Shown here: piece after piece, positions 35,349-52,801 of the stretch
Layout: the number at the start of each line of letters is the position of its first letter
Position numbering within the stretch: the first letter of the stretch is position 1
NCBI GenBank assembly: GCA_028044295.1
Contig: JAOFSE010000004.1
Span: 1 to 64,000, forward strand
Length of the DNA: 64,000 nt
Source: Sulfurimonas sp.
GTDB lineage: Bacteria > Campylobacterota > Campylobacteria > Campylobacterales > Sulfurimonadaceae
Direction: 5' to 3'
Made by a program: the position numbers and the translations under genes
The notes under the pieces: model-generated
The model's input: the letters and a program-made list of their open reading frames with translations, nothing else
Databases searched by the model: none
Told to the model about the DNA's origin: nothing

Positions 35349-37253
35349 TTATAATTCTATAAAATGCGAGATTTCTGAAAAAACAACAGCTCTTTTATTC
35401 TCATCAGAGTTTAAAATATTTTCAAGCATAGCTGCTATATTCTCATCGCAAGTTGGTACCAACTCTTTGATGTTTTGTAAACTTTCTGTCTTTAGGACAT
35501 TGGTAAACCTTTCATAAGCTGTGTATGGTTCATGCTTTGATAAACTATAGTAAATCTTTCTTCCTAACTCAAATACTTCAAACTCTTCATTTTTACCAGT
35601 ATTAGTTTTTTCAGAGAAACCTATATGTAATTCCATACCTTTAGACCGAAGGTATGCTCCAAGTTTCATTGTAAAGCCAACACAAGAAGATGTATATTGA
35701 GATAAAACTCTATCATTAAAGCCTTCAAAACTCTCACTGATACCCTTATGGTTTCTATACTCTAGCATTATCGATTCCACATATTGTGAAGCATATTTCA
35801 AAGGAGCTGACTTAAGAACTGTATGACCTTCTTTACCTTCACTTACTAGTTTTCCACCAAGAGATATATGAACACCACCTACTGTCTCACCATCAATCTT
35901 ACTTTTACATCCTTCAAAACCAATATCACCAAGCCCATGAATTCCACAACCTTTTACACAAGCTGACCAGTACATACGTACTTTTCCACTATCTAAGGGA
36001 ACTTTTTCTCCCAAATATTTTGACATATTAATAGCATCATTTTTGTTTTCAATTACTCCAAATGGACAATGCTCAGTACCAGCACATGCAATCAAACTAT
36101 TTAAGTACGGTGTATTTATATTTTTATACTCTTCAAATAAAGGTTCTTCAAGCATTTTTGCAACATCAGTTACTCCAAGTATATATAGGCTCTGTTCTAC
36201 ATTAAAACGTACTTCACCATTTCCATATTGATCAGCATGATTGGCAACATCAATAAGTGCACTTCCCGTAAATATACCTGACGGTATTACTACATGAACT
36301 CCAAATGTTCCATCACGTAATTGTACTTTACCCTGATCAGGGTCAATAAAGTCCATATTAGTTAATGTCTCTCCAGCACTTTTAAAATCTACTCCTGCAT
36401 TTTCTCTAATTGATTTAGCAATTTCTGCCATACCTACTGCTTCTATAAGAAAATGTAGTCTATTTTTATTTCTATTGTCTCTAAAACCAAATCGTCTAAA
36501 AATATCTACTATTGAGCCAAAAGCTTTGAGAACTTCATCTTCATTTTCTAAAAATATATTTGCATTTTTTGCAACAACTCCAACTTTTCCACCGAGATAC
36601 ATGTTATATCCATAGACTCCATTCTTTTGTGCAAGAACAAAACAAGCATCATGTGAAAACACATTACATCTGTTAGATATTGATCCTGTTATTGATGTAT
36701 TGAACTTTCTAGGAAGTGTAGATATCCAATCAGGAGAGAAAAGAAATGTTTCTTGGATTTTTAAGAGTGTTTTATGTGATGGCAAAATATTATCAAAACC
36801 TATATCATCAAGAGGGTCACCCATAATACCTCTAAAGTTGTCAACGCCTGTTTGATAAGTTGTTATGCCTACTTCATTGAGTCTTTTTAGTAGTGTTGGT
36901 AAATCTTCTATTTTTAAATAGCGCAATTCACATTGTGCTCTTGTAGTTATATCTATATAGTCTTGACCATACTCTTTTGCACACTCTCCAATAACTCTTG
37001 CCTGCTTAGAATTAAAATGTCCACCAGGAATACGGACCCTAATCATAAAGCGTTCAGGAGTAGCAGGTCTATCGAAAATTCCAAAACATTTTAAAAAGTA
37101 ATTTTTATCTTCATCAGGAATTGAATCATAACCATTTTTTGCATACTCTTCAAGTTTATCAAACGCCTCTTTAGGAGTTTTAGTATCTTTTACTTTTTCA
37201 ATTTTATTTACTTTAGTACTTCTAGCTTCATATGCTTTTTGTAGTGCTTCCAT
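35349..37253 (-). CDS. nirA: Siroheme nitrite/sulfite reductase, ferredoxin type (probable assimilatory nitrite reductase)
   Basis: A 634-residue enzyme reducing nitrite to ammonium with six electrons. It has the two repeated ferredoxin-like/siroheme-binding halves (GGHFNSKQARVIGECAKEYG and GTFGVHVVIPSGIFTG) and the siroheme-[4Fe-4S] cysteines in CAGTEHC and CVKGC. I placed the start at the ATG at 37253, which has GGAG seven bases upstream, rather than an in-frame TTG two codons earlier. Nitrite rather than sulfite specificity is inferred from its position after narB and cysG on the same strand. It is the last gene before the inverted repeat. Confidence 0.88.
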   Translation of the reverse strand: MEALQKAYEARSTKVNKIEKVKDTKTPKEAFDKLEEYAKNGYDSIPDEDKNYFLKCFGIFDRPATPERFMIRVRIPGGHFNSKQARVIGECAKEYGQDYIDITTRAQCELRYLKIEDLPTLLKRLNEVGITTYQTGVDNFRGIMGDPLDDIGFDNILPSHKTLLKIQETFLFSPDWISTLPRKFNTSITGSISNRCNVFSHDACFVLAQKNGVYGYNMYLGGKVGVVAKNANIFLENEDEVLKAFGSIVDIFRRFGFRDNRNKNRLHFLIEAVGMAEIAKSIRENAGVDFKSAGETLTNMDFIDPDQGKVQLRDGTFGVHVVIPSGIFTGSALIDVANHADQYGNGEVRFNVEQSLYILGVTDVAKMLEEPLFEEYKNINTPYLNSLIACAGTEHCPFGVIENKNDAINMSKYLGEKVPLDSGKVRMYWSACVKGCGIHGLGDIGFEGCKSKIDGETVGGVHISLGGKLVSEGKEGHTVLKSAPLKYASQYVESIMLEYRNHKGISESFEGFNDRVLSQYTSSCVGFTMKLGAYLRSKGMELHIGFSEKTNTGKNEEFEVFELGRKIYYSLSKHEPYTAYERFTNVLKTESLQNIKELVPTCDENIAAMLENILNSDENKRAVVFSEISHFIEL

Positions 37254-37330
37254 GGTCAAGCTCCAATATTTATTATCTATGTTATATTATCTATTTATTA
37301 GTCAAAGCAACTCATTAAGTTGATTAACTT

Positions 37331-38593
37331 TTATACATCTCTTAAGTTTCTAAGCTTTTTGTTTAACTTAACGACATCACCAAATACTAATATAGCAGGT
37401 CGTTCAACACCTAGTGCCATTGTTTCTAAATCTTGTATCGTACCTCTAATTACTTTTTGGTTTTGACGACTTGCATTTGAAATAATAGCACATGGTTTCT
37501 TTTTTGATATTCCTATCCTATTAGCTTCTTTTACTATCTCGCTTACACGACTTAATCCCATTAGTACAACTACAGTATGATTTTTCTTTTTAAGAATATC
37601 AATCCAATCAAGATATACACTGTTTCCTTTTAAATGAGCAGAAACCACACTAAAACCAACTGCATAATCCCTTGCCGTTATTGGGATATCTGCTAAAAGT
37701 GGAGCAGAAATAGATGAACTAATTCCAGCTATTACTTCTGTTTGAATTCCAACTTTTAAAAGCTCTACAAGTTCTTCAGCCCCACGACCAAAAACAAATG
37801 GGTCACCACTTTTCAACCTTGCTACTTTGAGACCTTTTTTTGCATACTTAATAATAAGCGAATTTATCTCTTCTTGACTCTTAGAGTGATAATCTTTTTG
37901 CTTACCTACATATATTTTTTTTGTTTTCTTAGGAACAAGTGCCATAATCTCATCACTTATTAAGTGATCATACAATACAACATCAGAGTCCAAGATTATT
38001 TTATAAGCCTTAATAGTTAGTAGTTCAACATCACCAAGTCCACATCCCACTAAATAAACTTTAGCAGTACTCTTTTTTAACTCTTTTTTTGTTGCTTCAA
38101 CATTAATAAGACCATTGTCTCTCTCTTTTTGTTTGAGTTCCATATAATTAGTGATGTCTTTTGGTATCATATCTTCACATTGATCTCTAAAGTACTTAGC
38201 TGCTGTTGGAGATGCTCCGTTACTTGATACCGCAATTTGAAGTGGTCTATTTTTTGTAAGTGCCATAAAATAAAAATCACATATATTAGGAACATCAACT
38301 ACATTTAAAAGTATGTCATTTGTTTTTTTGTACTTTAAAAGTTTATTTGTAACTTTCTTATTTCCTGTTGCATCTATAATTATCTTATAATCTTTTATAT
38401 CTTTTAATTTAAAATTCTTTTTTTCAATATTATCAGTCGTTTTTAAAATATTTTTGTTTAACTCTTTTGATATAATCCTAAAGTCTATATTATTATTTGA
38501 TAATACTTCAGCTTTTTGAAGAGCTACATTGCCACCACCAATAAGAAGAATTTTCTGGTTTTTCAAAAGTATAGGAAGAGTTTTATTTTTCAT
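37331..38593 (-). CDS. cysG: Siroheme synthase (CysG-type fusion)
   Basis: A 420-residue bifunctional protein. The N-terminal part (about 1-165) is the precorrin-2 dehydrogenase/ferrochelatase with ILLIGGGNVALQKAEVL and VVDVPNICDFYFMA; the C-terminal part (about 175-420) is uroporphyrinogen-III methyltransferase with VYLVGCGLGDVELLT, LKSGDPFVFGRGAEE and the later AIISNASRQNQKV. It makes siroheme, which the neighbouring nitrite reductase needs. It overlaps narB by 11 nt, so the three genes form one minus-strand operon. The first domain is short and Lys-rich but its NAD motif is intact. Confidence 0.94.
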   Translation of the reverse strand: MKNKTLPILLKNQKILLIGGGNVALQKAEVLSNNNIDFRIISKELNKNILKTTDNIEKKNFKLKDIKDYKIIIDATGNKKVTNKLLKYKKTNDILLNVVDVPNICDFYFMALTKNRPLQIAVSSNGASPTAAKYFRDQCEDMIPKDITNYMELKQKERDNGLINVEATKKELKKSTAKVYLVGCGLGDVELLTIKAYKIILDSDVVLYDHLISDEIMALVPKKTKKIYVGKQKDYHSKSQEEINSLIIKYAKKGLKVARLKSGDPFVFGRGAEELVELLKVGIQTEVIAGISSSISAPLLADIPITARDYAVGFSVVSAHLKGNSVYLDWIDILKKKNHTVVVLMGLSRVSEIVKEANRIGISKKKPCAIISNASRQNQKVIRGTIQDLETMALGVERPAILVFGDVVKLNKKLRNLRDV

Positions 38594-40883
38594 TTAATAC
38601 TATCTTCTCTTTTTCTTGTAGAGCTATACCTTCAAACTTACTCTTAACATGTGTTATCTCACCACTTATCTCTTCACTCTCAAACTCGATGCCATCTGGA
38701 ACCTCATCAGAGTGAAGTTGTATAGCAGTCTGTTTATAGTTTGGTTCACCAGACTTAGGACAAAAACTCTCAGAAGTCAGTTTGTTTATAAGTTGAGTGT
38801 TAAAGTGAAACGGTACAAAAACATTTGATGGTGCGACACTTTGACTTACACGAACAACAACATCCTCAACTCTACCTCTTGGAGAAGACAGAGAGATTCT
38901 ATCTCCACTTTTTACTTTTAACTTTTTAGCATCAACAGGGTTTATATCTACCCATGCTTCTGGTGCCAAATCATTAAGTATATCTATAGAACGTGTTTTT
39001 GTACGTGTATGCCACTGCTCAACCGTACGACCAGTGTTTAGAATGAGTGGGAACTCTTTTGTCACTGCTTCATTCATAGGAAACCAATCAGCTATTATGA
39101 GGTTTGCTTTTTCATCTTTCGTACGAAAAGGAATATCTGGTGAGTATAATCTTTTAGTCCCTAATGGTCTCTCCTCGTTACAAGGCCACTGTATACCACC
39201 CTCTTTCTCTAAAAGCTCATAAGTAATTCCCGTATAGTCACAAAGCTGTCCACGAGTCAGTTCTTTAAACTCATTAAACGCATCTATAGGTTTTTCCCAT
39301 GATGGAAAAAGAAGTTCATTAACTCCATCGAAGTGTTTTGAGAAGTCAACTATGATGTCAAAGTCACTCTTAGTATTACTTAATGGCTCAACTGCTTTAT
39401 TTGCACGATTACAACGTCTTTCACTATTTGTGTATGTTCCTTCTTTCTCACCCCATGTTGCAGCTGAGAAAACTACGTCAGCTATCTCTGCGGTATCTGA
39501 CATAAAAGCATCTTGAACAACTAGCATATCTAGTTTTGCAAAAGTTTTACGAAGTTTATCTTGGTTTACAAAACTCACAAGGGGATTTGTAGCTACTACC
39601 CACAGAGCTTTTATCTCACCTCTGTCTATTGCGTCAATAATCTCAGCATATTTATAACCACGTTCAGTTGGAACAATATCCTCAGGTACTTTAGCAATTT
39701 TTGCATAATCGCTTAATGCTTTTTCATCACCAAAGTTTCTATACCCTGGAAGAGATGATGTAAAACCACTCTCTCTTGTACCCATAGCATTACACTGACC
39801 AGTTATAGAAAAAGGCCCTGCACCTTCTCTCCCAATTTGTCCAGTTAATAAGTGCAAGTTAATAATAGCACTTACAGTATCAGTTCCCATAAATGATTGG
39901 TTCACACCCATAGTCCATGCTGAGAGTACTGACTCTTGAGCTACGAACTGTCTTGCTATCTCATAGAGTGTTTTAACATCTATACCTGTAATGTTAGAAA
40001 CCTCTTGTGGAGGATAATTTTGAAGATGCTTCTTAAGTTCTTTATAGCCATTAGTATTAGCTTTTATATAACCTTCATCTTCCCATCCCTGCTCCATCAC
40101 TATGTATGCAAGTCCATTAAAAAGTGCTAAGTCTGTTCTAGGTTTAATAGGAACAAATAAATCTGCCATTTGAGAAGTTTTTGAAGCTCTTGGATCTATA
40201 ACAATTATCTTAGGCTTTTTTTCATTCTTAGCAATGTGAAGTTTTAGTATAGGATGGTTGTCTGATATGTTAGCACCAATGAGTATGATTGTATTTGCAT
40301 ACTGAAAGTCTTCATAAGAACCAACTGGACCATCTGAACCTAAAGACTGTTTATAACCCATTACGGCAGAGGCCATGCATAGAGTTGTATTCCCATCGTA
40401 GTTATTTGTACCAAGGCCTAATTGAACAAACTTACCTAGTGTATAAAACTCTTCCGTTAAAAGCTGACCTGTTGATATAACACCAACAGCTTTTTCACCA
40501 TGCTCTGACGCAATACGTTTAAACTCTCGTGCAACTTTTGTATAAGCGTCGTCCCATGAAGCATAAACTAACTCATCATCTTTTTTTATTAGTGGAGTTG
40601 TTACTCTATCTCCAGAGTTTATCATCTGATGTTCACTCAGACCTTTTGGACATAGCGTTCCCATGTTTACACCATGAGCTGGATTACCTTTTGTGTATAC
40701 TGCTTTGCCATCTTTAACACCTATATGAAGACCACAACCAACACCACAGTAACCACATGTAGAAAATACCCATTTATCAGGTTTCTTCTCATCACTTATT
40801 ATTCCAAAAAGTGGATCTGATGATAGTTTGTACTTATCAGCTTTTATGTCAAAACCTAAAAAATCTTTAATTCTACCAATCAT
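38583..40883 (-). CDS. narB: Cytoplasmic molybdopterin nitrate reductase, catalytic subunit
   Basis: A 766-residue Mo-bisMGD oxidoreductase of the NarB/NasA/NapA group. The N-terminal [4Fe-4S] site is formed by Cys43, Cys46, Cys50 and Cys78 (CGYCGVGC, then TLCPKG). Cofactor-binding blocks include MGVNQSFMGTDTVSAI, GREGAGPFSITGQCNAMG and LNTGRTVEQWHTRTKTR. There is no Tat signal, so the enzyme is cytoplasmic and assimilatory, matching nirA and cysG downstream. No NasB/ferredoxin partner is adjacent; a DmsBC-like fusion at 43695 is the nearest electron donor candidate. It starts 73 nt from the motif at 40957-40973. Confidence 0.9.
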   Translation of the reverse strand: MIGRIKDFLGFDIKADKYKLSSDPLFGIISDEKKPDKWVFSTCGYCGVGCGLHIGVKDGKAVYTKGNPAHGVNMGTLCPKGLSEHQMINSGDRVTTPLIKKDDELVYASWDDAYTKVAREFKRIASEHGEKAVGVISTGQLLTEEFYTLGKFVQLGLGTNNYDGNTTLCMASAVMGYKQSLGSDGPVGSYEDFQYANTIILIGANISDNHPILKLHIAKNEKKPKIIVIDPRASKTSQMADLFVPIKPRTDLALFNGLAYIVMEQGWEDEGYIKANTNGYKELKKHLQNYPPQEVSNITGIDVKTLYEIARQFVAQESVLSAWTMGVNQSFMGTDTVSAIINLHLLTGQIGREGAGPFSITGQCNAMGTRESGFTSSLPGYRNFGDEKALSDYAKIAKVPEDIVPTERGYKYAEIIDAIDRGEIKALWVVATNPLVSFVNQDKLRKTFAKLDMLVVQDAFMSDTAEIADVVFSAATWGEKEGTYTNSERRCNRANKAVEPLSNTKSDFDIIVDFSKHFDGVNELLFPSWEKPIDAFNEFKELTRGQLCDYTGITYELLEKEGGIQWPCNEERPLGTKRLYSPDIPFRTKDEKANLIIADWFPMNEAVTKEFPLILNTGRTVEQWHTRTKTRSIDILNDLAPEAWVDINPVDAKKLKVKSGDRISLSSPRGRVEDVVVRVSQSVAPSNVFVPFHFNTQLINKLTSESFCPKSGEPNYKQTAIQLHSDEVPDGIEFESEEISGEITHVKSKFEGIALQEKEKIVLNEK

Positions 40884-40956
40884 TATTTATCCACTATTTT
40901 AACTTATGTTTTATGATTAATTATAGCACAAACACTAGCATTCATTTGATTTGTAT

Positions 40957-40973
40957 AGCTTAATTATTAATCA
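40957..40973. promoter_or_regulatory. Candidate regulator site upstream of narB
   Basis: Read on the minus strand: TGATTAA-TAA-TTAAGCT. It matches 12 of 14 half-site positions of the sites in front of narK and nrtA and lies 73 nt before the narB ATG. It also lies 51 nt before the P-type ATPase ATG. Confidence 0.5.
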
Positions 40974-41024
40974 CACCCTTTTTGATGATATAATATTTAC
41001 AATACACTTTTAAAGGTTCGAAAG

Positions 41025-43739
41025 ATGAAACATCTCATAGGTGAGAATTGGCATAGTCTAGAAACGAATAATATTGTAAGTTTATTTGAGAGTGACATAA
41101 ACAATGGTCTACTTCCTCTGAGCATAAAACATAGAGAAGATTTTTTTGGTAAAAATATGCTCAAGCATGTTAAAAAAGATTCTAACTTGAAAAAGTTTTT
41201 TATGCAATTTCACAACACTCTTATATATATACTCCTTGGTGCATCCATAGTCACTGCTTTCTTACATGAGTGGATAGACTCTGGTGTAATATTTAGTGTT
41301 GTTATCATCAATGTTATCATAGGCTACCTCCAAGAAGTAAAAGCTGAAGAGGCCATAGAGTCTCTTAAAAACATGATGGTAACTGAAGCCGTAGTCATAA
41401 GAGATGGAGTTAAAAGTGTTATATATTCTACAGACTTGGTACCTGGTGATATAGTCTTGGTTGAGTCTGGTTCAAAAGTACCCGCAGATATAAGACTACT
41501 AGAGTGCAACAACCTAAAAGTTGATGAGTCAATGTTAACAGGTGAGTCAGTTGCTGCCTTGAAAAATTTAGATTTACATGATGGGGATGTCACTATAAAT
41601 GATCGAGACAATATGGCATACTCTGGAACCTATGTCACATACGGACGTGCAAAAGGTATAGTTGTTGCAACTGCTGGGTATACAGAACTTGGCAAGATTG
41701 CACACCTAATTGAAAACACAACATCAATGGAAACTCCTCTTACAAAGAAAATATCTGCTTTTAGTAAGCTATTACTTTATGTAATTTTAGCACTGGCTAC
41801 TTTTACATTTGTAGTTGGAATACTAAGAGACAATAGTGCTGTAGATACATTTATGGCTTCTGTCGCACTAGCAGTTGGTGCAATACCTGAAGGCTTACCT
41901 GCTGCCCTTACTATTACACTAGCTATTGGTGTAAGTCGTATGGCAAAGAAAAATGCAATCATAAGGAAACTACCTGCAGTTGAGACGCTAGGAAGTGTAA
42001 CAACAATATGTTCAGACAAGACAGGAACCCTCACCCAAAATAAAATGAATGTTAGAGCTATCTACAGTTCTAACTCTACATATGAAGTCACTGGAAATGG
42101 GTATGAACCAAAAGGTAACTTCCTAATTGATAATAATAAAGTAGAAACTTTGGATGATGAATTAAAAGAGTTACTAAGAGCTGGCTATTTATGTAATGAA
42201 TCATACCTTTTGTATAAAGATAATCAATACAGTATAAATGGTGATCCTACCGAGGGATCACTTATAGTTACCGCACTCAAAGCAGGCTATGAAGAAGACA
42301 AACTCAACAAAAACTTTCCAAGAAGTGATATATTAGCTTTTGAATCAGATAGACAATTTATGGCTACTATAAACTTTGACACTACAAACAATCAAAATAT
42401 TTTATTTTTAAAAGGCTCAGTTGAGAAAACTTTAGACATCTGTACACATGAGTTAGTTGATGGATTACATGTAGATTTAGATAAAGATAAAATCTTGCAA
42501 AAAGTAGAAGAGTTTGCAAGTGATGGTCTAAGAGTTTTAGCTATAGGTAAAAAGTTAATCAAAGGAAGTAAAATAGATGAAAGACTTCTTGATAATGATT
42601 TTGTATTTTTAGGGCTTGTTGCTATGATGGACCCTCCTCGTCCCGAAGCTATTGAAGCTGTAAAAGAGTCAATTGGGGCAGGTATAAATGTCATAATGAT
42701 TACCGGTGACCATGCACTTACTGCGTTCTCTATTGCAAAGATGATGTCAATAGTCGATGAGAACACAAAGATAGAAGGTTCTGTAATTACTGGTAAGGAA
42801 CTATTTAGTATGAGTGACAAAGAGCTAGTTCAAAAAGTATCCCATGTAAAAGTATTTGCAAGAGTGGAGCCTGAACAGAAACTCCGTATTGTAGATGCCC
42901 TACAAGCTAACGGTAAGGTTGTTGCTATGACTGGAGATGGTGTAAATGATGCACCTGCACTTAAACAAGCCGATATTGGGATTGCTATGGGAATGGGTGG
43001 TACAGAGGTAGCAAAAGAAGCTGCAGATATGATTTTAAGTGATGATAACTTTAGCTCTATTAGTCATGCAGTGCGAGAAGGACGTACTGTCTTTAACAAC
43101 CTTATTAAGTTTATAACATGGACACTTCCTACTAATCTTGGTGAGGGTCTAGTGATATTGTTTGCCATCATGCTAGGAGTCACCTTACCAATTCTTCCCG
43201 TTCAGATTTTATGGATAAATATGGCAACTGCAATATGTCTAGGTCTCATGTTAGTTTATGAACCAGAAGAAAAAGACATTATGTTAAAACAACCAAGAAA
43301 TCCAAAAAGTCCAATACTAAGTAAGGACATGATAGTTCAGATGTTAGTTGTTGGTCTATATATGTTGATAACATCATATACAATGTTTAACTATGCCTTA
43401 TCACTTGGTTACTCCATAGAGTATGCTAGAAGTGTAGCTGTAAACATTTTTGTTTTTATTGAGCTTTTTTATCTGTTTTCTTGTAAAGAGTTACATACTT
43501 CTATATTTAAAACAAATATATTTAACAATAAGTTTTTACTTTTTGGTGTTGCTTTGATGACTCTACTTCAAGTTACTTTTACTCATAGCAAATTTATGCA
43601 ACTTATGTTTAAAAGTGAATCTCTACATGTAGAAACATGGATACAAATAATTGTCATATCTTTTTGTGTTGTTTTTGTTGTAGAGGGACAAAGATTAATC
43701 TCTTTGTTTACCTACAAAAAATCCTCCAGCCATTCCTAA
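41025..43739 (+). CDS. P-type II cation-transporting ATPase, substrate unclear
   Basis: A 904-residue pump with an N-terminal cation-ATPase domain (HREDFFGKN), M1-M2 (about 60-100), the actuator loop MLTGES, the M4 motif PEGLPAALTITL, the phosphorylation site CSDKTGTLTQ (about 330), nucleotide-domain motifs, TGDGVNDAPALKQADIG and a six-helix C-terminus. It is in the SERCA/PacL-like class, but M6 reads WINMATAICLGL where calcium pumps carry TDG, so the M6 Asp is missing and Ca2+ transport should not be assumed. Its 3' end overlaps the convergent dmsBC gene by 45 nt. It is not obviously part of nitrate metabolism. Confidence 0.88.
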   Translation: MKHLIGENWHSLETNNIVSLFESDINNGLLPLSIKHREDFFGKNMLKHVKKDSNLKKFFMQFHNTLIYILLGASIVTAFLHEWIDSGVIFSVVIINVIIGYLQEVKAEEAIESLKNMMVTEAVVIRDGVKSVIYSTDLVPGDIVLVESGSKVPADIRLLECNNLKVDESMLTGESVAALKNLDLHDGDVTINDRDNMAYSGTYVTYGRAKGIVVATAGYTELGKIAHLIENTTSMETPLTKKISAFSKLLLYVILALATFTFVVGILRDNSAVDTFMASVALAVGAIPEGLPAALTITLAIGVSRMAKKNAIIRKLPAVETLGSVTTICSDKTGTLTQNKMNVRAIYSSNSTYEVTGNGYEPKGNFLIDNNKVETLDDELKELLRAGYLCNESYLLYKDNQYSINGDPTEGSLIVTALKAGYEEDKLNKNFPRSDILAFESDRQFMATINFDTTNNQNILFLKGSVEKTLDICTHELVDGLHVDLDKDKILQKVEEFASDGLRVLAIGKKLIKGSKIDERLLDNDFVFLGLVAMMDPPRPEAIEAVKESIGAGINVIMITGDHALTAFSIAKMMSIVDENTKIEGSVITGKELFSMSDKELVQKVSHVKVFARVEPEQKLRIVDALQANGKVVAMTGDGVNDAPALKQADIGIAMGMGGTEVAKEAADMILSDDNFSSISHAVREGRTVFNNLIKFITWTLPTNLGEGLVILFAIMLGVTLPILPVQILWINMATAICLGLMLVYEPEEKDIMLKQPRNPKSPILSKDMIVQMLVVGLYMLITSYTMFNYALSLGYSIEYARSVAVNIFVFIELFYLFSCKELHTSIFKTNIFNNKFLLFGVALMTLLQVTFTHSKFMQLMFKSESLHVETWIQIIVISFCVVFVVEGQRLISLFTYKKSSSHS

Positions 43740-45266
43740 GGGAACAACAGTTGAATAAAATAAAAATCTATCACTAAATTCACTAGAGATAGAAAGAAGT
43801 AAAGCTATAAACATCACAAAAGATGCAGCTCCAAATGATGATGTACTAAATAGTACTATTGTAAAAAGTGGAAGTAATAAGCCACCTATAACTATAGATA
43901 TAAAACGAAACCTTTTTACATTAGAAAAATTTTCATCATAAAGTCTTGCAGTTCTTAAAAGTTGATACTCATTTAAAGTTGTTGACTTTAACGTCCGAAG
44001 ATCTTCATATGTAAAAAAGAGTTGAGAAATTGCTCCAAGCATTGATAGTGTAATAAGAGGAATCGCAACCTCTTTTAATCCAAATATCACTGCTATTAAC
44101 CCCAGTAAGAGAATTCCTACATGTAGAGTTCCAAAGAACTTGAAGTTTGTAGTGATTCTGTCCCACGATGGACGAGCTTTTATACGGTATATCATAGCCT
44201 GTGCATGGATACCATATATACCAACTACAAGAGTTAAAAGTTCAACAAGTAAAATACTTACATGTGGAGCTTCTACAAAATACATAACTACTACTATATT
44301 CATTAGTAAAACAAAAACACCAAGAGCTAAGGCTTCACGAGACAACCATGAACTTTTTATATTCTTCATAGCTGTAAGTGCTAAAAATGGACGTCCAAGA
44401 TGAAGAGCTGACAGGGGAAGACCAAGTGCAGCTGGAAGCATTACTAAAAGAGCCATTATCCAGTTCGTTTGAGAAAATCCAAACAGACTCATAACATCAC
44501 CTAAAAATAGTGCTAAAAAACCACCTAGAGATACTTGTGTGAGAACTGTCATAAAGACTAATGGCATCTCTGAATGAGATGGTTTAAGTATATGCTCATC
44601 AACCTCTTTTAAATCATCTGGCATATTCTCTGGTAGTGTGTATCTTGTAGTAGAATTTGTAATTCTTGCATCTGGTAAAAAAGGCATATTTGCTTGATCA
44701 TCTATGTCCCTTTCTAGCCACTCTTGAACATTTACAGTTTCTATCTCTATAGCTCCTGATGGACATGCTTGAACACAAGCTGGAGTTTGACCAACATCTA
44801 AACGCTCATAACACATATGGCACTTAGTAACAATGTTACGCTCTTCATGGAAGGTTGGGACACCATAAGGGCAGTTCCAAGTACAGTACTGACAACCTAT
44901 ACATGTATCATCATCATGTATAACTATTCCTGTTTCTGCTATCTTTATATAAGACTCTGTTGGACATCCTATCAGACACTCAGGGTCTATACAGTGGTTA
45001 CAACTCATAGAGTTAAAGATTTGGCTAAACTGAGGGAAAACACCACCCTCTACCTCACCTACTCTTCGCCATTTTATATCTGCTGGATTATTATTTTGTT
45101 CATTACATGCAACTTCACAACAGTGACATCCCACACAAGCAGTTGCATCAAAGTGAAAACGGTACTGTTCACCATCTTTTAAATCTGGAATATCTATAGA
45201 GTAATTACCACATTGCATACCTGTGTCAGCTTTATGATCTATAAAACTCTCTAAGGGTGTTTGCAT
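43695..45266 (-). CDS. DmsB-DmsC fusion: four-cluster ferredoxin plus membrane quinol-oxidising anchor
   Basis: A 523-residue fusion. I took the ATG at 45266, with GGAG nine bases upstream, over a GTG five codons earlier. The first 200 residues hold 16 cysteines in four groups (CVGCHCCEVAC, CNHCIDPECLIGC, CIGCQYCTWNC, CHMCYERL with CVQACP), enough for four [4Fe-4S] clusters. The rest has about eight membrane helices like DmsC (LSALHLGRPFLALTAMKNIKSSWLSREAL). No signal peptide, so the clusters face the cytoplasm. It lies between nitrate genes and shares their promoter motif, so it probably passes quinol electrons to NarB (inferred). Confidence 0.88.
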   Translation of the reverse strand: MQTPLESFIDHKADTGMQCGNYSIDIPDLKDGEQYRFHFDATACVGCHCCEVACNEQNNNPADIKWRRVGEVEGGVFPQFSQIFNSMSCNHCIDPECLIGCPTESYIKIAETGIVIHDDDTCIGCQYCTWNCPYGVPTFHEERNIVTKCHMCYERLDVGQTPACVQACPSGAIEIETVNVQEWLERDIDDQANMPFLPDARITNSTTRYTLPENMPDDLKEVDEHILKPSHSEMPLVFMTVLTQVSLGGFLALFLGDVMSLFGFSQTNWIMALLVMLPAALGLPLSALHLGRPFLALTAMKNIKSSWLSREALALGVFVLLMNIVVVMYFVEAPHVSILLVELLTLVVGIYGIHAQAMIYRIKARPSWDRITTNFKFFGTLHVGILLLGLIAVIFGLKEVAIPLITLSMLGAISQLFFTYEDLRTLKSTTLNEYQLLRTARLYDENFSNVKRFRFISIVIGGLLLPLFTIVLFSTSSFGAASFVMFIALLLSISSEFSDRFLFYSTVVPLGMAGGFFVGKQRD

Positions 45267-45333
45267 AAATATAATCTCCACATGCTTTATTTTAGTATTA
45301 AAATTATATCTAAGAAGGACTATAATAAGTGTG

Positions 45334-45364
45334 ATTACAATGATTATTATTTAACCATTGTAAT
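45334..45364. promoter_or_regulatory. 9-bp inverted repeat in the dmsBC-narK divergent region
   Basis: ATTACAATG (45334-45342) and CATTGTAAT (45356-45364), perfect arms with a 13-nt spacer. It encloses the first TGATTAT-TAT-TTAACCA site. Confidence 0.5.
45341..45357. promoter_or_regulatory. Candidate regulator site 1 between dmsBC and narK
   Basis: TGATTAT-TAT-TTAACCA; 13 of 14 half-site bases match the site at 45374. It lies 74 nt before the dmsBC ATG. The two sites are 33 bp apart, about three helix turns. Confidence 0.6.
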
Positions 45365-45373
45365 TTTAGCCTA

Positions 45374-45390
45374 TGATTAAAAATTAACCA
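45374..45390. promoter_or_regulatory. Candidate regulator site 2 between dmsBC and narK
   Basis: TGATTAA-AAA-TTAACCA, a quasi-palindrome, 68 nt before the narK ATG. Its half-sites are identical to those upstream of nrtA. Confidence 0.65.
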
Positions 45391-45458
45391 GTAAGTACTG
45401 TCACATCCATTTTACATCTATTATACTTCCACATCAATTTGTTTTAGGAGACAATAAT

Positions 45459-46739
45459 ATGGCAGGATTTAAAGATTTAAAAGGACAAGGGCATACACCA
45501 ACGTTGTTTATGGCCTTTTTATATTTCGATATGAGTTTTATGGTTTGGACTATGCTTGGTCCATTAAGTACAGAGATAGCAGAAGCACTAGCTCTTACTG
45601 GCCACATGATTACTGCTGGAGAGAAAGCTACACTTCTTTCACTTCCTATTCTTTCAGGTGCAATACTTAGAATACTACTTGGTTTTGGTGTTGATAAAAT
45701 TGGAGCTAAATTAACAGCAATGCTTTCACAAACAGTTGTTATTGCTGCACTTTTAACTGCATATATGCAAGGTAGTTCTATAACTTACGACACTTTACTT
45801 CTTGTTGCACTTGGACTTGGTTTTGCAGGAGCATCTTTTGCTGTTGCACTTCCACAAGCTGGTCAATGGTATCCACCAAAACTTCAAGGTGTTGTCCTTG
45901 GTATTGCTGGTGCTGGTAATATTGGTGTTGTTATTGACTTTCTATTTGCTCCAAAAATCGCAGAACTTTGGGGATGGGAATCAGTGTTTGGTGTAGGTGC
46001 AGCAATGGCTATAGTTGTTCTAATAGCTTATGCATTTTTAGCTAAAAATGCTCCTGCAGATGTTTATACGGCTCGTCCTAAGAAACTAAAAGATTATGCA
46101 AAACTACTTCGTGACAAAGACACATGGTGGTTTAACCTTTTCTATGCAGTATCTTTTGGTGGTTTCGTTGGTTTTGCTGGGTATATGAAAGTTTATCTTA
46201 TGAATACTTACCAAGCTGACATGAGTACTATCGGTATGGATTTATTTAGTGAAGAAAATGTAAAAGTTACTGCCGGTTATTTTGGTGCTTTATGTATATT
46301 TGCGGGTGCAGTACTTCGTCCAGTAGGTGGGAACACGGCTGATAAAATCGGTGGTGTAAAATCATTATACTTTTTTTATGGAATGGTTGCGCTTCTAGTT
46401 ATACTTAGTGCTACTGTTAAACTACCATTTTATGCAGCTATATTTGTACTGTTTCTTATCATGGCTAACCTTGGTATGGCAAATGGAGCAGTATTTCAAC
46501 TAGTTCCGCAAAGGTTCGGTAAAGACATTGGTATCATGACAGGAATTGTTGGTGCTGCTGGTGGTCTTGGTGGTACTGCACTTATCAAAACTCTTGGTTG
46601 GTCTAAGGGTGCATTTGATGGTTATACAGCAGGTTTCTTGATTTTTGCAGCTGTTGTTATAGTAGCACTAGCGGGTTTAAGTCTTGTAAAAACAAGATGG
46701 AGAACTACTTGGGGTGTTCAAGCAGGTGGTCGTATCTAG
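45459..46739 (+). CDS. Nitrate/nitrite MFS transporter (NarK/NasA family)
   Basis: A 426-residue, twelve-helix transporter of the nitrate-nitrite porter family. The family's glycine-rich nitrate signatures are visible as GIAGAGNIGVVIDF (helix 5) and GIVGAAGGLGG (helix 11), and the motif-A-like GFGVDKIGAKL follows helix 2. TTAGGAG precedes the ATG. It is divergent from dmsBC, with two copies of the candidate regulator site between them. Import for assimilation is inferred from the cytoplasmic NarB. A hairpin overlaps its stop codon. Confidence 0.92.
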   Translation: MAGFKDLKGQGHTPTLFMAFLYFDMSFMVWTMLGPLSTEIAEALALTGHMITAGEKATLLSLPILSGAILRILLGFGVDKIGAKLTAMLSQTVVIAALLTAYMQGSSITYDTLLLVALGLGFAGASFAVALPQAGQWYPPKLQGVVLGIAGAGNIGVVIDFLFAPKIAELWGWESVFGVGAAMAIVVLIAYAFLAKNAPADVYTARPKKLKDYAKLLRDKDTWWFNLFYAVSFGGFVGFAGYMKVYLMNTYQADMSTIGMDLFSEENVKVTAGYFGALCIFAGAVLRPVGGNTADKIGGVKSLYFFYGMVALLVILSATVKLPFYAAIFVLFLIMANLGMANGAVFQLVPQRFGKDIGIMTGIVGAAGGLGGTALIKTLGWSKGAFDGYTAGFLIFAAVVIVALAGLSLVKTRWRTTWGVQAGGRI

Positions 46740-46762
46740 ATGATGATATTACATCATCTAGA
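46735..46762 (+). terminator. Strong hairpin at the end of narK
   Basis: An 11-bp perfect stem (TCTAGATGATG and CATCATCTAGA) around a 6-nt loop, overlapping the narK stop codon. The following T-run is poor, so it may act as a stability element or a partial terminator. It ends 24 nt from the convergent small gene. Confidence 0.6.
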
Positions 46763-46785
46763 TTCCTACATGTAACTTTATGAAA

Positions 46786-47004
46786 TTAACTTCTTTCTAA
46801 AAAAAGTCTATATCCATGTGTCTCATGTGAAGGGACAACATGAACTAGTCTCCAACCATCTTTATATAAAGCTGCTAATGTAGTCTTTGAGTTTTGAACT
46901 TGAGATATAACATCTTTAGTAGCCTCTTTTTTCGCGTCAGACACTTGGATTATTTCACTGTTTTCATTGTATAAAACAGCACAAAAGTATATTTTCATTT
47001 CCAT
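46786..47004 (-). CDS. Small protein, unknown function
   Basis: A 72-residue soluble protein (MEMKIYFCAVLYNENSEIIQ, with GWRLVHVVPSHETHGYRLFLERS at the end) with a predicted beta-strand/helix/strand layout, resembling DUF4177-like small domains only loosely. AGGAG lies upstream of the ATG. It lies between narK and the flavin-nucleotide-binding protein and may be cotranscribed with the latter, whose stop is 53 nt upstream. No function can be assigned. Confidence 0.62.
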   Translation of the reverse strand: MEMKIYFCAVLYNENSEIIQVSDAKKEATKDVISQVQNSKTTLAALYKDGWRLVHVVPSHETHGYRLFLERS

Positions 47005-47057
47005 ATTATAAATCTCCTATTTGATTTAATTTGATGCAACTATTATAACTGAATCTT

Positions 47058-47666
47058 TTACTCACCCTCTTGAAGATTAAAAAAGTCAACCTTAGGTACT
47101 TTTACATTTTCATCTAAATTATCAGATTTTTTTAAAATAGGTATATTTTTTGAACAGTGAATGTAAGCTTCTTCTACTTCTACAAGAACCCAAAAAACAC
47201 TCTTTTGATTAACTTCTATATGCATAGTTTTATTTACACTTTCACATATATCTTTCATCTCAGTTTCATTCAGTAGCTTAGCTTTTCCATTTACATGTAA
47301 ACCAATTTTGTTCTCAAAAAAGTCTACAAACAACATACCAATATGGGGGTTTTCAGAAATGTTGCCAGCAGAGGCTAATACACCATTTCCTTTATAATCT
47401 GCATATGCAACTCTTTTTTCATCTATAACAGTCACAAAGCCTGCTTCTCCACTTCTAAAAGAGTTATCACACTCTCCCCTAGAGTCAGACGTTGCTATGA
47501 ACATCATCTCTTGTTTTTGTATAAACTGCTGCATATCATCAGCCAAGTAGTCCAACATCTGTCTGTTATAAAAATCTTTAGCTTTTTGTGTTGTTTGAAA
47601 TGCTTTTTGCATATTATGCTCACCATCAGATCCTGGCAAGTTATTGCCTTCGTATAAATAACTCAT
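47058..47666 (-). CDS. Pyridoxamine 5'-phosphate oxidase-like flavin-binding protein
   Basis: A 202-residue split-barrel protein. The core runs from FIQKQEMMFIATSDSRGECDNSFR to GFVTVIDEKRVAYADYKGNG and NPHIGMLFVDFFENKIGLHVNGKAKLL, the usual pattern of PNPOx-like proteins that bind FMN, F420 or heme. The SDSRGECDNS stretch is the ligand-contact loop. It is divergent from nrtA across 229 nt. Related proteins are often near nitrogen-oxide or stress genes, but the ligand and role here are unknown. Confidence 0.83.
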   Translation of the reverse strand: MSYLYEGNNLPGSDGEHNMQKAFQTTQKAKDFYNRQMLDYLADDMQQFIQKQEMMFIATSDSRGECDNSFRSGEAGFVTVIDEKRVAYADYKGNGVLASAGNISENPHIGMLFVDFFENKIGLHVNGKAKLLNETEMKDICESVNKTMHIEVNQKSVFWVLVEVEEAYIHCSKNIPILKKSDNLDENVKVPKVDFFNLQEGE

Positions 47667-47808
47667 TTAGTATCACTTTTATAAAATTATTAATTTGAAA
47701 TGTGATTGTATCTTTATCTTTATATAGTAAAACTTATTCATTTTCCTTACAATATCCTCTAACAATAGATTAATTTGTATATATATCATACAAATAATAT
47801 TACATTAA

Positions 47809-47825
47809 TGGTTAATATTTAATCA
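47809..47825. promoter_or_regulatory. Candidate regulator site upstream of nrtA
   Basis: Read on the minus strand: TGATTAA-ATA-TTAACCA. Half-sites are identical to those in front of narK. It lies 70 nt before the nrtA ATG and 10 nt before a TATAAT box, so a bound protein would cover the -35 region. Confidence 0.65.
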
Positions 47826-47841: not shown

Positions 47842-47895
47842 ATACTATTTTTGAATTATACTTCTGCATAACAAAAATTACTTTAGGAGAATTAC

Positions 47896-49275
47896 ATGTT
47901 AAAAAAAGTTTTAAAAGTCGGATTAGGACTATCACTAGTTGCCACATCTTTATTGGCTGAAGTAGAAAAGAAAAAATTAACTATAGGTTTTATCGCCTTA
48001 ACTGACTGTGCACCAATAGTCATAGCAGAAGAAAAAGGTTTTTTTGACAAGTACGGTTTAGATGTGCATGTTGTTAAGGAAGGTGGTGGTTGGCCAGGTA
48101 TACAACAAAAAGTAATCTCTGGTGAGTATGACTTCTCTCACGCTCTTGCTGGTATGCCAATCGCAGCTACTTTAGGTATAAATGGTAATGCTAACCTACA
48201 AGCTGTACTAAGTCTTGACTTTAATGGTAATGGTATTACATTTGGTAATAAAATTATCAAAAAGATGGAAAAATATGGAATGGACAAAACTGCTCGTCCA
48301 TTAACATCTGAAGCACTAAAAAAATATATTGACGACAAACACAAAACAGAAGGTGAAAACTATCAACCACTATCATTTGGTATGGTTCACCCAGTATCTA
48401 CTCACAACTACGAACTAAGATACTGGATGGCATCATCAGGAATAGTGCCAGATCGTGATACTACTATTAAACCTTTCCCACCACCAACAATGCCTTCAAA
48501 TCTTATTGCAGGAAATATTGAAGGTTACTGTGTAGGTGAGCCTTGGAATGAGAGAATTGTACTTAAGAAAAAAGGTTCAACTCTTGTAACAAACTATGAC
48601 ATCTGGAATAATAATCCTGAAAAAGTTCTTCAAACTAGAGCTGATTTTATTGATAAAAATCCAGAGACAACAAAAGCTGTGATGAAAGCCATACTTGAAG
48701 CTCAAATCTGGTTAGATTCTTCTTGGGAAAACCGTAAAGAAGCAGCAAAAATCATGTCTAAACCAAACTATGTTAAAGCACCAGTATCTGTACTTGAAAA
48801 ATCAATGACAGGAACATTTCAGTACTTAAAAGGTCAAGACTCTGAGCCAAACCCAATGTTTAATGTTTTTGCTAACTACTATGCAGCGTATCCTTACTAC
48901 TCACATGGTATGTGGTTTATTACACAAATGTACAGATGGGGTCAAATCGATAAGCCTGTTGATATGAAAAAAGTTATCGAGTCTGTTTATAGACCTGACC
49001 TTTTTGCTGAAGTTGCAAAAGATATTGGTTACACACTGCCTCCAAGCGCATGGAAAAAAGATGGTGTAGATAAATACAACATGTTTATGGATGGAAAAGT
49101 TTGGGATCCAAACAAAGCAGTTGAGTATATATTCTCTACAGGTATTGATGAGTCTAAAGTATCAAAAGAAGCTTTACTAAAAGCTAATACATGGACAGTT
49201 ACTACTGAGCAACCTAGTTATGTATGTCCATACGGTCCAGCTGGATGTGCTGACCCAAAATATGTAACAAAGTAA
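47896..49275 (+). CDS. nrtA: Nitrate ABC transporter substrate-binding protein
   Basis: A 459-residue periplasmic binding protein with a signal peptide (MLKKVLKVGLGLSLVATSLLA) and the NrtA/SsuA-like domain: IGFIALTDCAPIVIAEEKGFF, GWPGIQQKVISGEYDFSHA, and the EGYCVGEPWNERIV segment that contacts the ligand in nitrate-binding proteins. TTAGGAGA precedes the ATG. The last 20 residues carry two cysteines (YVCPYGPAGCAD). It is followed by a strong terminator and then nrtB, 187 nt away, so the binding protein can be made in excess over the membrane parts. Nitrate specificity is supported by the island context. Confidence 0.92.
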   Translation: MLKKVLKVGLGLSLVATSLLAEVEKKKLTIGFIALTDCAPIVIAEEKGFFDKYGLDVHVVKEGGGWPGIQQKVISGEYDFSHALAGMPIAATLGINGNANLQAVLSLDFNGNGITFGNKIIKKMEKYGMDKTARPLTSEALKKYIDDKHKTEGENYQPLSFGMVHPVSTHNYELRYWMASSGIVPDRDTTIKPFPPPTMPSNLIAGNIEGYCVGEPWNERIVLKKKGSTLVTNYDIWNNNPEKVLQTRADFIDKNPETTKAVMKAILEAQIWLDSSWENRKEAAKIMSKPNYVKAPVSVLEKSMTGTFQYLKGQDSEPNPMFNVFANYYAAYPYYSHGMWFITQMYRWGQIDKPVDMKKVIESVYRPDLFAEVAKDIGYTLPPSAWKKDGVDKYNMFMDGKVWDPNKAVEYIFSTGIDESKVSKEALLKANTWTVTTEQPSYVCPYGPAGCADPKYVTK

Positions 49276-49283
49276 TTATATCT

Positions 49284-49315
49284 GTCATAAAGGAATATCT
49301 CCTTTATGACTTTTT
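49284..49315 (+). terminator. Intrinsic terminator between nrtA and nrtB
   Basis: An 11-bp perfect stem (GTCATAAAGGA and TCCTTTATGAC) around a 5-nt loop, followed by TTTTT. It is 8 nt past the nrtA stop. Any transcript reaching nrtB must read through it or start after it. Confidence 0.85.
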
Positions 49316-49338
49316 ATCAACACGATTGTAATAATTAA

Positions 49339-49459
49339 TATCTTTAAGTATCTAGAACATTAATAGGAATCTTCCTTCATTTAGTTCTCCTACGCTCTAG
49401 GTACTTTCCTCCTAGGTACTTAAAGATGTAAATTAAATTACATTACAAATGAAGGAAGA
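49339..49459 (+). promoter_or_regulatory. Two interleaved inverted repeats in the nrtB leader, one covering the Shine-Dalgarno
   Basis: Arm A (49339-49355) pairs with A' (49412-49428), 17 pairs with two G-U. Arm B (49370-49382) pairs perfectly, 13 bp, with B' (49447-49459), and B' contains the AAGGA of nrtB. The order is A-B-A'-B', so the two helices are either mutually exclusive or a pseudoknot. CTAGGTACTT also occurs twice (49397-49406, 49412-49421), giving A a second partner. A five-codon frame, ATG at 49449, ends in an ATGA overlap with nrtB. Confidence 0.6.
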
Positions 49460-49462
49460 ACG

Positions 49463-50278
49463 ATGAATAATGAACTAATCAAAAAAATAGCATTACCATT
49501 TTTGGTATTTCTATTTATATTACAGGTATGGGCTGGAATTTCTACAGTTGTAGAAGACTTCCCCACTCCTAGTGATACTTATGTAGCCGCATTTGGTGGT
49601 ATTAATGTAGACGGGGATGAAATAGAAGGTGTACTAGCAGACCCTTTTTATATCAATAACCAAGATGACAAAGGTATATTTTGGCAAATTATGGAATCTC
49701 TTAAAAGAGTATTTGCAGGTTTTGTACTTGCTATACTGGTTGGTGTTCCACTAGGTCTCCTTATCGGAATGAGTAAAAGTGCTCAGTATGCATTTGACCC
49801 ATTTATACAGATACTCAAACCTGTATCACCCTTAGCATGGTTACCGCTTTTACTGTTTATATTTCAAGATATAAACATGACAGCAATTTCAACTATATTT
49901 ATCACATCTATATGGCCAATTATTATCAATACAACACTAGGTGTTAAAAGTGTAAGTGAAGATTATATGAATGTAGCAAAAGTATTAAGATTTTCTCCAA
50001 TGGACAAAATAGTACAAATTATTTTACCAGTGTCTGTTCCATATATATTTACAGGGATGAGATTATCACTTGGTATAGCTTGGTTAGTTATTGTTGCTGC
50101 TGAAATGCTGACAGGTGGTATTGGTATTGGTTTTTGGATTTGGGATGAGTATAACAACCTTAACTATCACAATATTATTATAGGGATTATGGTTGTAGGA
50201 CTAATCGGTTATCTTTTAGACCTAATAATGGGAAGAATAGCAGACTATTTTGACTATACAAAGAAAGGTAGAGCGTAA
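49463..50278 (+). CDS. nrtB: Nitrate ABC transporter permease
   Basis: A 271-residue inner-membrane permease of the NrtB/SsuC/TauC group: an N-terminal helix (about 10-27), a periplasmic segment, then five helices. The EAA-like loop that contacts the ATPase reads MNVAKVLRFSPMDKIVQIILPVSVPYIFTGMR, and the closing IADYFDYTKKGRA is also usual. AAGGAAG just before the ATG is a strong ribosome site, but it is also the arm of a 13-bp inverted repeat. The stop overlaps nrtC by one base (TAATG). Confidence 0.93.
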   Translation: MNNELIKKIALPFLVFLFILQVWAGISTVVEDFPTPSDTYVAAFGGINVDGDEIEGVLADPFYINNQDDKGIFWQIMESLKRVFAGFVLAILVGVPLGLLIGMSKSAQYAFDPFIQILKPVSPLAWLPLLLFIFQDINMTAISTIFITSIWPIIINTTLGVKSVSEDYMNVAKVLRFSPMDKIVQIILPVSVPYIFTGMRLSLGIAWLVIVAAEMLTGGIGIGFWIWDEYNNLNYHNIIIGIMVVGLIGYLLDLIMGRIADYFDYTKKGRA

Positions 50279-51072
50279 TGAATGACAAGTTTTTAAGTTT
50301 AGAAAATATTGAAAAAAGATTTCCGATTCCTGGAAAAGATGACTATGTTGCTGTTACAGATGTAAACCTTGAGATTAAAAAAAATGAGATTATATCAATA
50401 ATCGGTCATAGTGGTTGTGGTAAGAGTACACTACTAAACATGATATCTGGTCTTGATGCACAGACAGAGGGAAATATACTATTACAAAACAAAGAAGTAA
50501 AAGGTCCAGGACCTGATCGTGCAGTAGTATTTCAAAACCATTCACTACTTCCTTGGCTTAGTGTGTATGAAAATATTGAGATGGCAGTAAAAAAAGTTAT
50601 GCCAGAACTTGATTCATCAGAACTAAGAGCTAGAGTAGACAAGTACATAAGCATGGTGAACCTAGACCATGCAAAAGACAAACTACCAGATGAGATAAGT
50701 GGTGGTATGAAACAACGTGTTGGTATTGCAAGAGCCTTGTCTATCACACCAAAAGTTTTACTAATGGATGAGCCTTTTGGAGCTTTGGACTCTTTAACAC
50801 GTGCCAACTTACAAGAGCACCTAATGAGAATACAGCAGAAGGTACAAAATACTGTAATCATTATTACACATGATATTGACGAAGCCGTTCTTTTAAGTGA
50901 CAGAGTTATTATGATGACGAATGGTCCTCATGCAACTATTGGAGAAATTTTAGAAGTAAATCTTGAACGTCCTAGAGATAGAGTATCTTTACAAAGTGAT
51001 CCTGAGTACATAAGATGTAGAGAGGCAATTTTAAGTTTTCTATACGAGAAATTTGCTAAAGATGATGAGTAA
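50278..51072 (+). CDS. nrtC: Nitrate ABC transporter ATPase
   Basis: A 264-residue ABC ATPase with Walker A GHSGCGKST (about 44-52), Q-loop VFQNHSLLPW, signature ISGGMKQR, Walker B LLMDEPFGALD and H-loop ITHDIDEA. The C-terminal NrtA-like regulatory domain of cyanobacterial NrtC is absent, so it is closer to NrtD or TauB in layout; the symbol is by position. It overlaps nrtB by one base and the next gene by 8-11 bases, linking uptake and the downstream signalling genes in one message. Confidence 0.92.
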   Translation: MNDKFLSLENIEKRFPIPGKDDYVAVTDVNLEIKKNEIISIIGHSGCGKSTLLNMISGLDAQTEGNILLQNKEVKGPGPDRAVVFQNHSLLPWLSVYENIEMAVKKVMPELDSSELRARVDKYISMVNLDHAKDKLPDEISGGMKQRVGIARALSITPKVLLMDEPFGALDSLTRANLQEHLMRIQQKVQNTVIIITHDIDEAVLLSDRVIMMTNGPHATIGEILEVNLERPRDRVSLQSDPEYIRCREAILSFLYEKFAKDDE

Positions 51073-51934: not shown

Positions 51935-52801
51935 ATGAATGAATTTATGACAACATATCATGAAAACAGAAGTGATATAAAAAACTTTTTAATAGAAACA
52001 ATATTTAATCTAGGGAGTATAGAGAGTAGAGAAAATGATAATTACAAAAAACTCTTCAAAGTTTTTCCATCATTGGAACTTGTATATACATGTAATGAAG
52101 ACATGCTACAGATATCTGCAAATATATATAAAAATAAGACAAGTGATATAACTATTGGCAGGGATAGAAGTTATCTCCTTGAAAAGTTAGAGTTTAACAC
52201 AAGTAACATTGCTATATCTGAACCTTACATAAGTAGCGCTACTGGTGACACATGTGTCACTGTAGCAAAAAAAGAGAATGGCAAGATATACTTTTTAGAC
52301 TTTAACATCTCATCTCTATTACAAAGACTTGGATTAATTGAGAATCATAAAGGTTTTAATTTTATTAGTAAAAGTTTTTATTTTTTTACAGCGGCAGTAA
52401 TGATGGTTTTAGCACTTTTTACAATAGGTTATTCTGTGTTTGAATTTCTTAACTCAGTACTCTATAAAGATGGCCTTTCTATTGAATCAATCTTCAAACC
52501 AGTGATTGCTTTAACTCTTGGACTTGCTATATTTGATTTAGCTAAAACAGTCTTGGCTCAGGAGGTTGTTTTTAAAAGTTATTCCAAAAACTCAAATAAT
52601 GAATATAAAGTCTTAACAAAATTTTCAATTACAATTATAATAGCTTTACTTATAGAGTCTCTTATGGTAGTATTTAAAATAGCTATAGATGACTATTCTC
52701 ATATGATTCATGCTCTATATTTAATAGGTGGAGTTTCTATTTTAATAGTCTCATTAGGTATATTTATATACTTTACTAAAAAGAAAATAATTAATGAATA
52801 A
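51935..52801 (+). CDS. PDC/Cache-like sensor domain followed by membrane helices
   Basis: A 288-residue protein. The first 145 residues have a PDC/Cache-like pattern, especially AISEPYISSATGDTCVTVAKK then KIYFLDFNISSLLQRL, which is where small ligands bind in this fold. About four hydrophobic helices follow (150-172, 186-205, 232-252, 258-282). No signal peptide or membrane helix precedes the sensor, so it may be cytoplasmic, which is unusual for a Cache domain. AAAGGA precedes the ATG and the stop overlaps the kinase gene by 8 nt. No output domain is present; it probably acts with its neighbours. Confidence 0.72.
   Translation: MNEFMTTYHENRSDIKNFLIETIFNLGSIESRENDNYKKLFKVFPSLELVYTCNEDMLQISANIYKNKTSDITIGRDRSYLLEKLEFNTSNIAISEPYISSATGDTCVTVAKKENGKIYFLDFNISSLLQRLGLIENHKGFNFISKSFYFFTAAVMMVLALFTIGYSVFEFLNSVLYKDGLSIESIFKPVIALTLGLAIFDLAKTVLAQEVVFKSYSKNSNNEYKVLTKFSITIIIALLIESLMVVFKIAIDDYSHMIHALYLIGGVSILIVSLGIFIYFTKKKIINE

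Follow-up and report, generated by a model that had tools for sequence, protein, structure and literature searches.

Four short palindromes in the nitrate gene cluster of a Sulfurimonas sp. genome are very probably operators of a nitrogen-assimilation activator with a Fis-type helix-turn-helix (HTH), represented in this genome by a candidate regulator of 250 amino acids (aa). The sites lie in the window, the stretch of 64,000 nucleotides (nt) of contig JAOFSE010000004.1 analysed here. Judged by comparison across relatives, a previously undescribed nitrogen master switch, found across much of Campylobacterota, most likely binds the palindrome; no earlier description of a nitrogen regulator of this phylum was found in the open-access papers searched.

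Palindromic sites in the nitrate cluster

The four sites are as follows:
40957-40973, minus strand: putative operator of narB-cysG-nirA, the weaker site (TGATTAATAATTAAGCT on the minus strand; two mismatches)
45341-45357, minus strand: putative dmsBC operator (TGATTATTATTTAACCA on the plus strand; a counterpart stands before dmsBC in relatives)
45374-45390, plus strand: putative narK operator (TGATTAAAAATTAACCA; 43 of about 78 relatives have it ahead of narK)
47809-47825, plus strand: putative nrtABC operator (TGGTTAATATTTAATCA on the plus strand, TGATTAAATATTAACCA on the minus strand)

The distances from site to start codon are 73 nt for narB, 74 nt for dmsBC, 68 nt for narK and 70 nt for nrtA. 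These values, like the coordinates of the four sites, had been given by the original prediction and are borne out by the sequence. The asymmetry of the motif first proposed, TGATTAW-N3-TTAACCA, is a local feature, as the consensus of relatives is the symmetric TGATTAA-N3-TTAATCA and TTAACCA is a variant of it.

Genome-wide counts come from pattern searches over the 1.91 megabases (Mb) of this genome. Exact matches to TGATTAWNNNTTAACCA number three, all within the nitrate cluster, where a first-order Markov model expects 0.17 per genome of this size. With at most one mismatch there are six distinct places, all intergenic: the nrtA, narK and dmsBC sites, a site 65 nt upstream of the start of glnA (glutamine synthetase), and sites before two porin genes. 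One of the latter lies 65 nt upstream of a Gcw_chp/TorF-like porin gene; the other, a perfect palindrome (C23:104273; L030 6274), lies 75 nt upstream of an OprD/alginate-type porin gene that is followed by a moaA-like gene. Through this last site, the synthesis of molybdenum cofactor may be linked to nitrogen control. The raw count of six is not above the Markov expectation of 6.4, and it is the positions that are telling. At a looser threshold (up to three mismatches), the window holds 47 matches against 38 expected, which is not significant; the narB site, with its two mismatches, is therefore supported by position and spacing and not by sequence alone.

Conservation across Campylobacterota

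The comparison covered 80 narK loci of Campylobacterota, about 78 of them with readable upstream sequence. The palindrome TGNTTA-N5-TAANCA is present in 43 of these upstream regions, mostly 62-74 nt from narK, and the phylum consensus is a perfect 17-base-pair (bp) palindrome. Within the narK loci it also precedes the divergent nirA/sir, dmsBC, amtB and porin genes and is rare elsewhere; in samples from two families, further sites lie 65-72 nt ahead of glnA and 63-86 nt ahead of amtB. Overall, the palindrome stands 60-86 nt before narK, nirA/sir, dmsBC, glnA and amtB in many Campylobacterota, and a reversed control pattern is almost absent. A sister palindrome, TGTATA-N5-TATACA, precedes the same genes in Arcobacteraceae-like loci, with 26 sites and no match to the reversed pattern. 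In family f8, TGTATA sites precede glnA, amtB, gltB, nifA, urtA and eutB, a nitrogen-scavenging set.

The proposal that a regulator of nitrogen or nitrate use acts at these sites thus gains support: the best matches in this genome precede nitrogen genes, and scanning relatives finds the site kept before orthologous narK, nrtA and nirA. Because glnA and amtB are included, together with the Arcobacteraceae-like gltB, nifA, urtA and eutB, the regulator is a general one, and the regulon is general nitrogen assimilation, beyond nitrate alone. Two f8 loci (L248 and L263) carry TGTATA palindromes 56-68 nt before nifA-like genes, the gene in L248 scoring just under the cut-off of the NifA model. This suggests that nitrogen fixation there may answer to the same regulator.

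The paired dmsBC and narK sites, 33 bp apart in the window, had been read as about three helical turns apart. This spacing is not kept, ranging from 24 to 172 bp in relatives, and joint action of the pair was dropped on that ground; each site serves one of two divergent promoters.

Nitrate genes are typical targets of nitrate- or oxygen-responsive Crp/Fnr-type regulators (FNR, NssR or similar), and in one locus (L103) a Crp-like gene adjoins narK. Sites of this family are even-length, as in TTGAT-N4-ATCAA or TTAAC-N4-GTTAA for FNR/NssR. The present site is odd-length (17 bp, arranged 7-3-7), in line with the earlier remark that the motif is neither the FNR nor the NssR consensus, and glnA and amtB are among the targets. 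A regulator of this type at the sites is accordingly very improbable. The Crp-like gene of L103, seen in that locus only, adjoins cytochrome/NO-reductase-like genes and was set aside.

Promoter layout

In 69 of 116 promoters, the centre of a TATAAT-like hexamer falls 42.5 bp downstream of that of the palindrome; counting those at 43.5 bp as well, the number is 89. Shuffled sequences give about two hexamers per position. In this genome, a -10 box lies at 42.5-43.5 bp at all seven sites, with other hexamers scoring as well or better at nrtA and the two porin genes. The boxes of the window are:
40920-40925, minus strand: -10 box TATAAT of narB, centre 42.5 bp from the operator centre
45303-45308, minus strand: -10 box TATAAT of dmsBC, 43.5 bp from the operator centre
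45422-45427, plus strand: -10 box TATACT of narK, 42.5 bp from the operator centre
47857-47862, plus strand: -10 box TATACT of nrtA, 42.5 bp from the operator centre (candidate boxes also lie at 21.5 and 26.5)

The aligned promoter profile shows no conserved -35 element. From the -10 spacing, the operator centre would fall near -52, a position typical of an activator. Sigma-54 target promoters, a trait of NtrC, are replaced here by TATAAT-type -10 boxes at fixed spacing.

The layout also bears on whether the palindromes could be a chance or structural feature of A/T-rich intergenic DNA (a bend, hairpin or terminator). The window is 67% A+T, and near matches with two or three mismatches are common in it. 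With the reversed control almost absent, the positions fixed relative to the -10 boxes, and the site kept ahead of the same genes in different families, this explanation is refuted for practical purposes and keeps a negligible probability.

Candidate regulator protein

Locus L071 has two genes upstream of amtB, one for a 244-aa protein that ends in a Fis-type HTH and one for a PAS protein; a palindrome lies between this pair and amtB. The sole orthologue in the present genome is the 250-aa protein (C32:72455-73201, minus strand), 39% identical to that of L071. Its gene lies between slyD and fabD, the GTG start overlapping the end of slyD, and thus outside the window, which, as had been noted, contains no transcription factor gene.

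Pfam matches HTH_8 in this protein at or above the curated cut-off and Sigma54_activat over positions 3-44 of 168 only; there is no Response_reg match, and the protein begins at the AAA+ part. Sequence matches in the PDB are to Fis chains (E 0.1-0.5) and to Aquifex-type NtrC1; the latter aligns in two stretches, between which the protein is about 55 residues shorter. Among 87 orthologues, a GAFTGA-like string is found in none, a Walker A motif (G-x4-GK) is present in 80, and the recognition helix never varies in its N, R, T and L. An AlphaFold2 model from a two-row alignment has a mean predicted local distance difference test score (pLDDT) of 51.5, with values above 70 confined to the helices at the C-terminus and to a short part of the centre. 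The domain matches and motifs make the protein look like a cut-down relative of NtrC that lacks the receiver domain and the GAFTGA loop.

One other HTH_8 protein is encoded in this genome, an orphan response regulator (C31:23270) whose gene has ispDF-, sulfate adenylyltransferase- and pgpA-like neighbours. Because it resembles HP1021/Cj1608, a type retained in Helicobacter and Campylobacter, and shows no link to the palindrome, it was rejected as a candidate.

Association of regulator and operator

Co-occurrence was counted in 249 genomes of the order, the counts being transcribed by hand from tables. The 173 genomes with the regulator contain 246 perfect palindromes and 13 control-pattern matches; the 76 without it contain 11 and 4. 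As presence and absence follow families, co-occurrence is weak evidence when taken alone. Gene neighbourhood adds to it. In families f5, f6, f8, f11 and f17 the regulator gene is a direct neighbour of amtB and/or glnK, several of these families having palindromes in between; in f8 it also adjoins glnD. Palindromes also stand directly before the regulator gene in members of f6, f7, f8 and f17.

The recognition helix and the operator change together, the TGTATA operators keeping the kinds of target genes and the spacing of the TGATTA form. Sampled f8 regulators read NRITLRKK (or NRV, NRT) at the helix where others read NRNTLRKK. The 18 f8 genomes with a regulator hold 113 TGTATA palindromes (control 20), with TGATTA at background; the ten without hold three (control 4). 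Within genus g13, three regulator-bearing genomes have 7, 3 and 7 TGTATA sites, and nine genomes without the gene have one in total. A second, separate clade with NRI or NRA (f5 G038, f11 G010, f8 g36, f17 g22) also carries TGTATA, and the tree places at least two helix changes on well-supported branches. In a comparison of 40 narK-locus genomes, the 21 chosen as carriers of TGATTA-type sites all have the NRN helix; of the NRI genomes that have sites, TGTATA is the only form in five, and G296 combines it with one degenerate TGGTTA site. One genome (G297, that of L053) encodes two regulator copies, NRN and NRI, and has TGTATA sites before narK and amtB.

The two palindrome forms are compatible with what is known of Fis, whose sites show G at 7 (G/C at -7/+7), a pyrimidine-purine step at 3-4, a favoured T at 8 and an A/T-rich, compressible centre (PMC4784862). 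Both TGATTA and TGTATA forms follow all four rules. They differ at positions 5 and 6, beside the Arg contact, and the variable helix residue may touch these two bases.

Several observations weigh against assigning the palindrome to this protein. Family-level co-occurrence is confounded by phylogeny; f14, f3 and part of f17 have the regulator and few palindromes of either type; the independent-pairs test is underpowered, with only two supported contrasts for the helix switch. Simple one-to-one helix specificity does not predict the TGTATA sites that precede narK or nrtA in eight NRN genomes, of which two also have a TGATTA-type site. In the present genome, the regulator gene is not adjacent to nitrogen genes, and the region upstream of amtB is lost at a contig end. 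These points include what would be expected if the palindrome were a nitrogen regulator's operator bound by another transcription factor, with the Fis-type protein merely correlated by phylogeny: its presence follows families, its gene in Sulfurimonas-type genomes sits between slyD and fabD, and the eight NRN genomes do not fit. Such a factor is nevertheless unlikely given the linkage to amtB, glnK and glnD in several families, the co-absence of gene and sites within g13, the covariation of helix and operator, the fit of the palindrome to Fis site rules, and the orphan response regulator as the only further HTH_8 protein.

Proposed mechanism

The most likely mechanism for the Fis-type regulator is activation of sigma-70 promoters under nitrogen limitation. 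A dimer would bind the 17-bp palindrome, whose A/T-rich centre would be compressed, with the Arg of NRNTLRKK reading the G at -7 and +7. From there, 42.5 bp above the -10 box and about 52 bp ahead of the transcription start, the dimer would help sigma-70 RNA polymerase to initiate at promoters lacking a -35 box. Under nitrogen shortage, nitrate uptake and reduction, glutamine synthetase and ammonium transport would be turned on.

From these sequence comparisons we infer both physical binding and its sign, activation rather than repression. The same protein might instead repress these promoters when nitrogen is plentiful, since its function is itself deduced and Caulobacter has a GAFTGA-less NtrC that represses some genes as well (PMC10274813). 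Repression is improbable for an operator that is centred near -52, lies upstream of the polymerase core site in fixed helical phase and is followed by no -35 element.

Our best guess for the signal is that it may pass through PII (GlnK/GlnD) or the linked PAS protein. GlnD is kept in this genome (C31), as is a homologue of the PAS partner (C1:281753-282415; L357 4742-5425), directly downstream of rpoD. Phosphotransfer in the manner of NtrC is unlikely because the regulator has no receiver domain.

Other genes of the window

The genes served by the four sites, and one further gene, are:
35349-40883, minus strand: narB, cysG-like and NirA/Sir-like genes, contiguous open reading frames (ORFs) presumed to form one operon (Pfam Molybdopterin, NIR_SIR)
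43695-45266, minus strand: DmsB-DmsC fusion, electron transfer and anchor (Pfam Fer4_11, DmsC)
45459-46739, plus strand: narK, MFS transporter (Pfam MFS_1)
47896-51072, plus strand: nrtA, nrtB and nrtC, nitrate-type ABC transporter (NMT1_2 for NrtA; nrtB and nrtC named by reading)
51935-52801, plus strand: membrane protein without assigned function; a homologue lies beside the regulator gene in Arcobacteraceae-like genomes

The membrane protein has no match in a Pfam scan and is 52-53% identical to ORFs adjoining the regulator gene in loci L180 and L193; it is possibly a sensor or accessory protein. Downstream of the nrt genes, 52794-54437 (plus strand) encodes a PP2C phosphatase fused to a Ser/Thr kinase (Pfam). 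Homologues of this fusion adjoin narK in many relatives (L044, L071, L090, L103), and it may regulate nitrate uptake post-translationally.

Comparison with known systems

Campylobacterota are common in sulfidic and vent habitats, where nitrate and ammonium uptake, glutamine synthesis and, in some members, nitrogen fixation bear on nitrogen cycling. The present analysis supplies a candidate gene, operator, regulon and promoter layout. It also suggests how NtrB-NtrC could be pared down to a sigma-70 activator that does without phosphotransfer, and the pairing of an Asn-to-Ile helix change with a matching operator change lets the joint evolution of a regulator and all its sites be studied as a natural experiment.

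The recognition helix of E. coli Fis is NRGTLRKK. The proposed regulator resembles it in its NRNTLRKK helix and in the shared site rules (PMC4784862). It differs in having an AAA+-like domain and much stricter sites, Fis being a small nucleoid protein. TyrR is a relative of the enhancer-binding proteins that acts at sigma-70 promoters and has a Fis-type HTH, features it shares with the proposed regulator. The two differ in signal, domains, box and regulon: TyrR responds to aromatic amino acids, carries ACT and PAS domains, recognizes TGTAAA-N6-TTTACA and controls other genes.

The likeness to NtrC comprises control of glnA, amtB/glnK and nitrate assimilation, a Fis-type HTH, a 17-bp palindrome with TG...CA ends and, in several families, a regulator gene followed by one for a PAS-bearing, NtrB-like protein. 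The regulon is of NtrC type, with operators before glnA, amtB, nrtA, narK, nirA, gltB, nifA and urtA. The NtrC box is TGCACC-N5-GGTGCA; the candidate Campylobacterota regulator has the half-site TGATTA, sigma-70-type promoters and neither receiver nor GAFTGA loop, and its PAS partner lacks recognisable kinase domains. As it has neither the receiver nor the complete AAA+ domain expected of NtrC, it falls outside NtrC proper. We give even chances to a reduced NtrB-NtrC pair that has abandoned phosphotransfer and sigma-54 work, consisting of a pure Fis-type sigma-70 activator and a PAS protein lacking recognisable kinase domains, in which Asn-to-Ile/Ala changes at one position of the recognition helix rewired the operators of the entire regulon from TGATTA to TGTATA at least twice. 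Closest in working mode are the GAFTGA-less NtrC proteins of Rhodobacter capsulatus and Caulobacter, which act at sigma-70 promoters of nitrogen genes (PMC10274813). These differ in belonging to another phylum and in having lost the short loop alone, keeping the receiver with its phosphorylated Asp.

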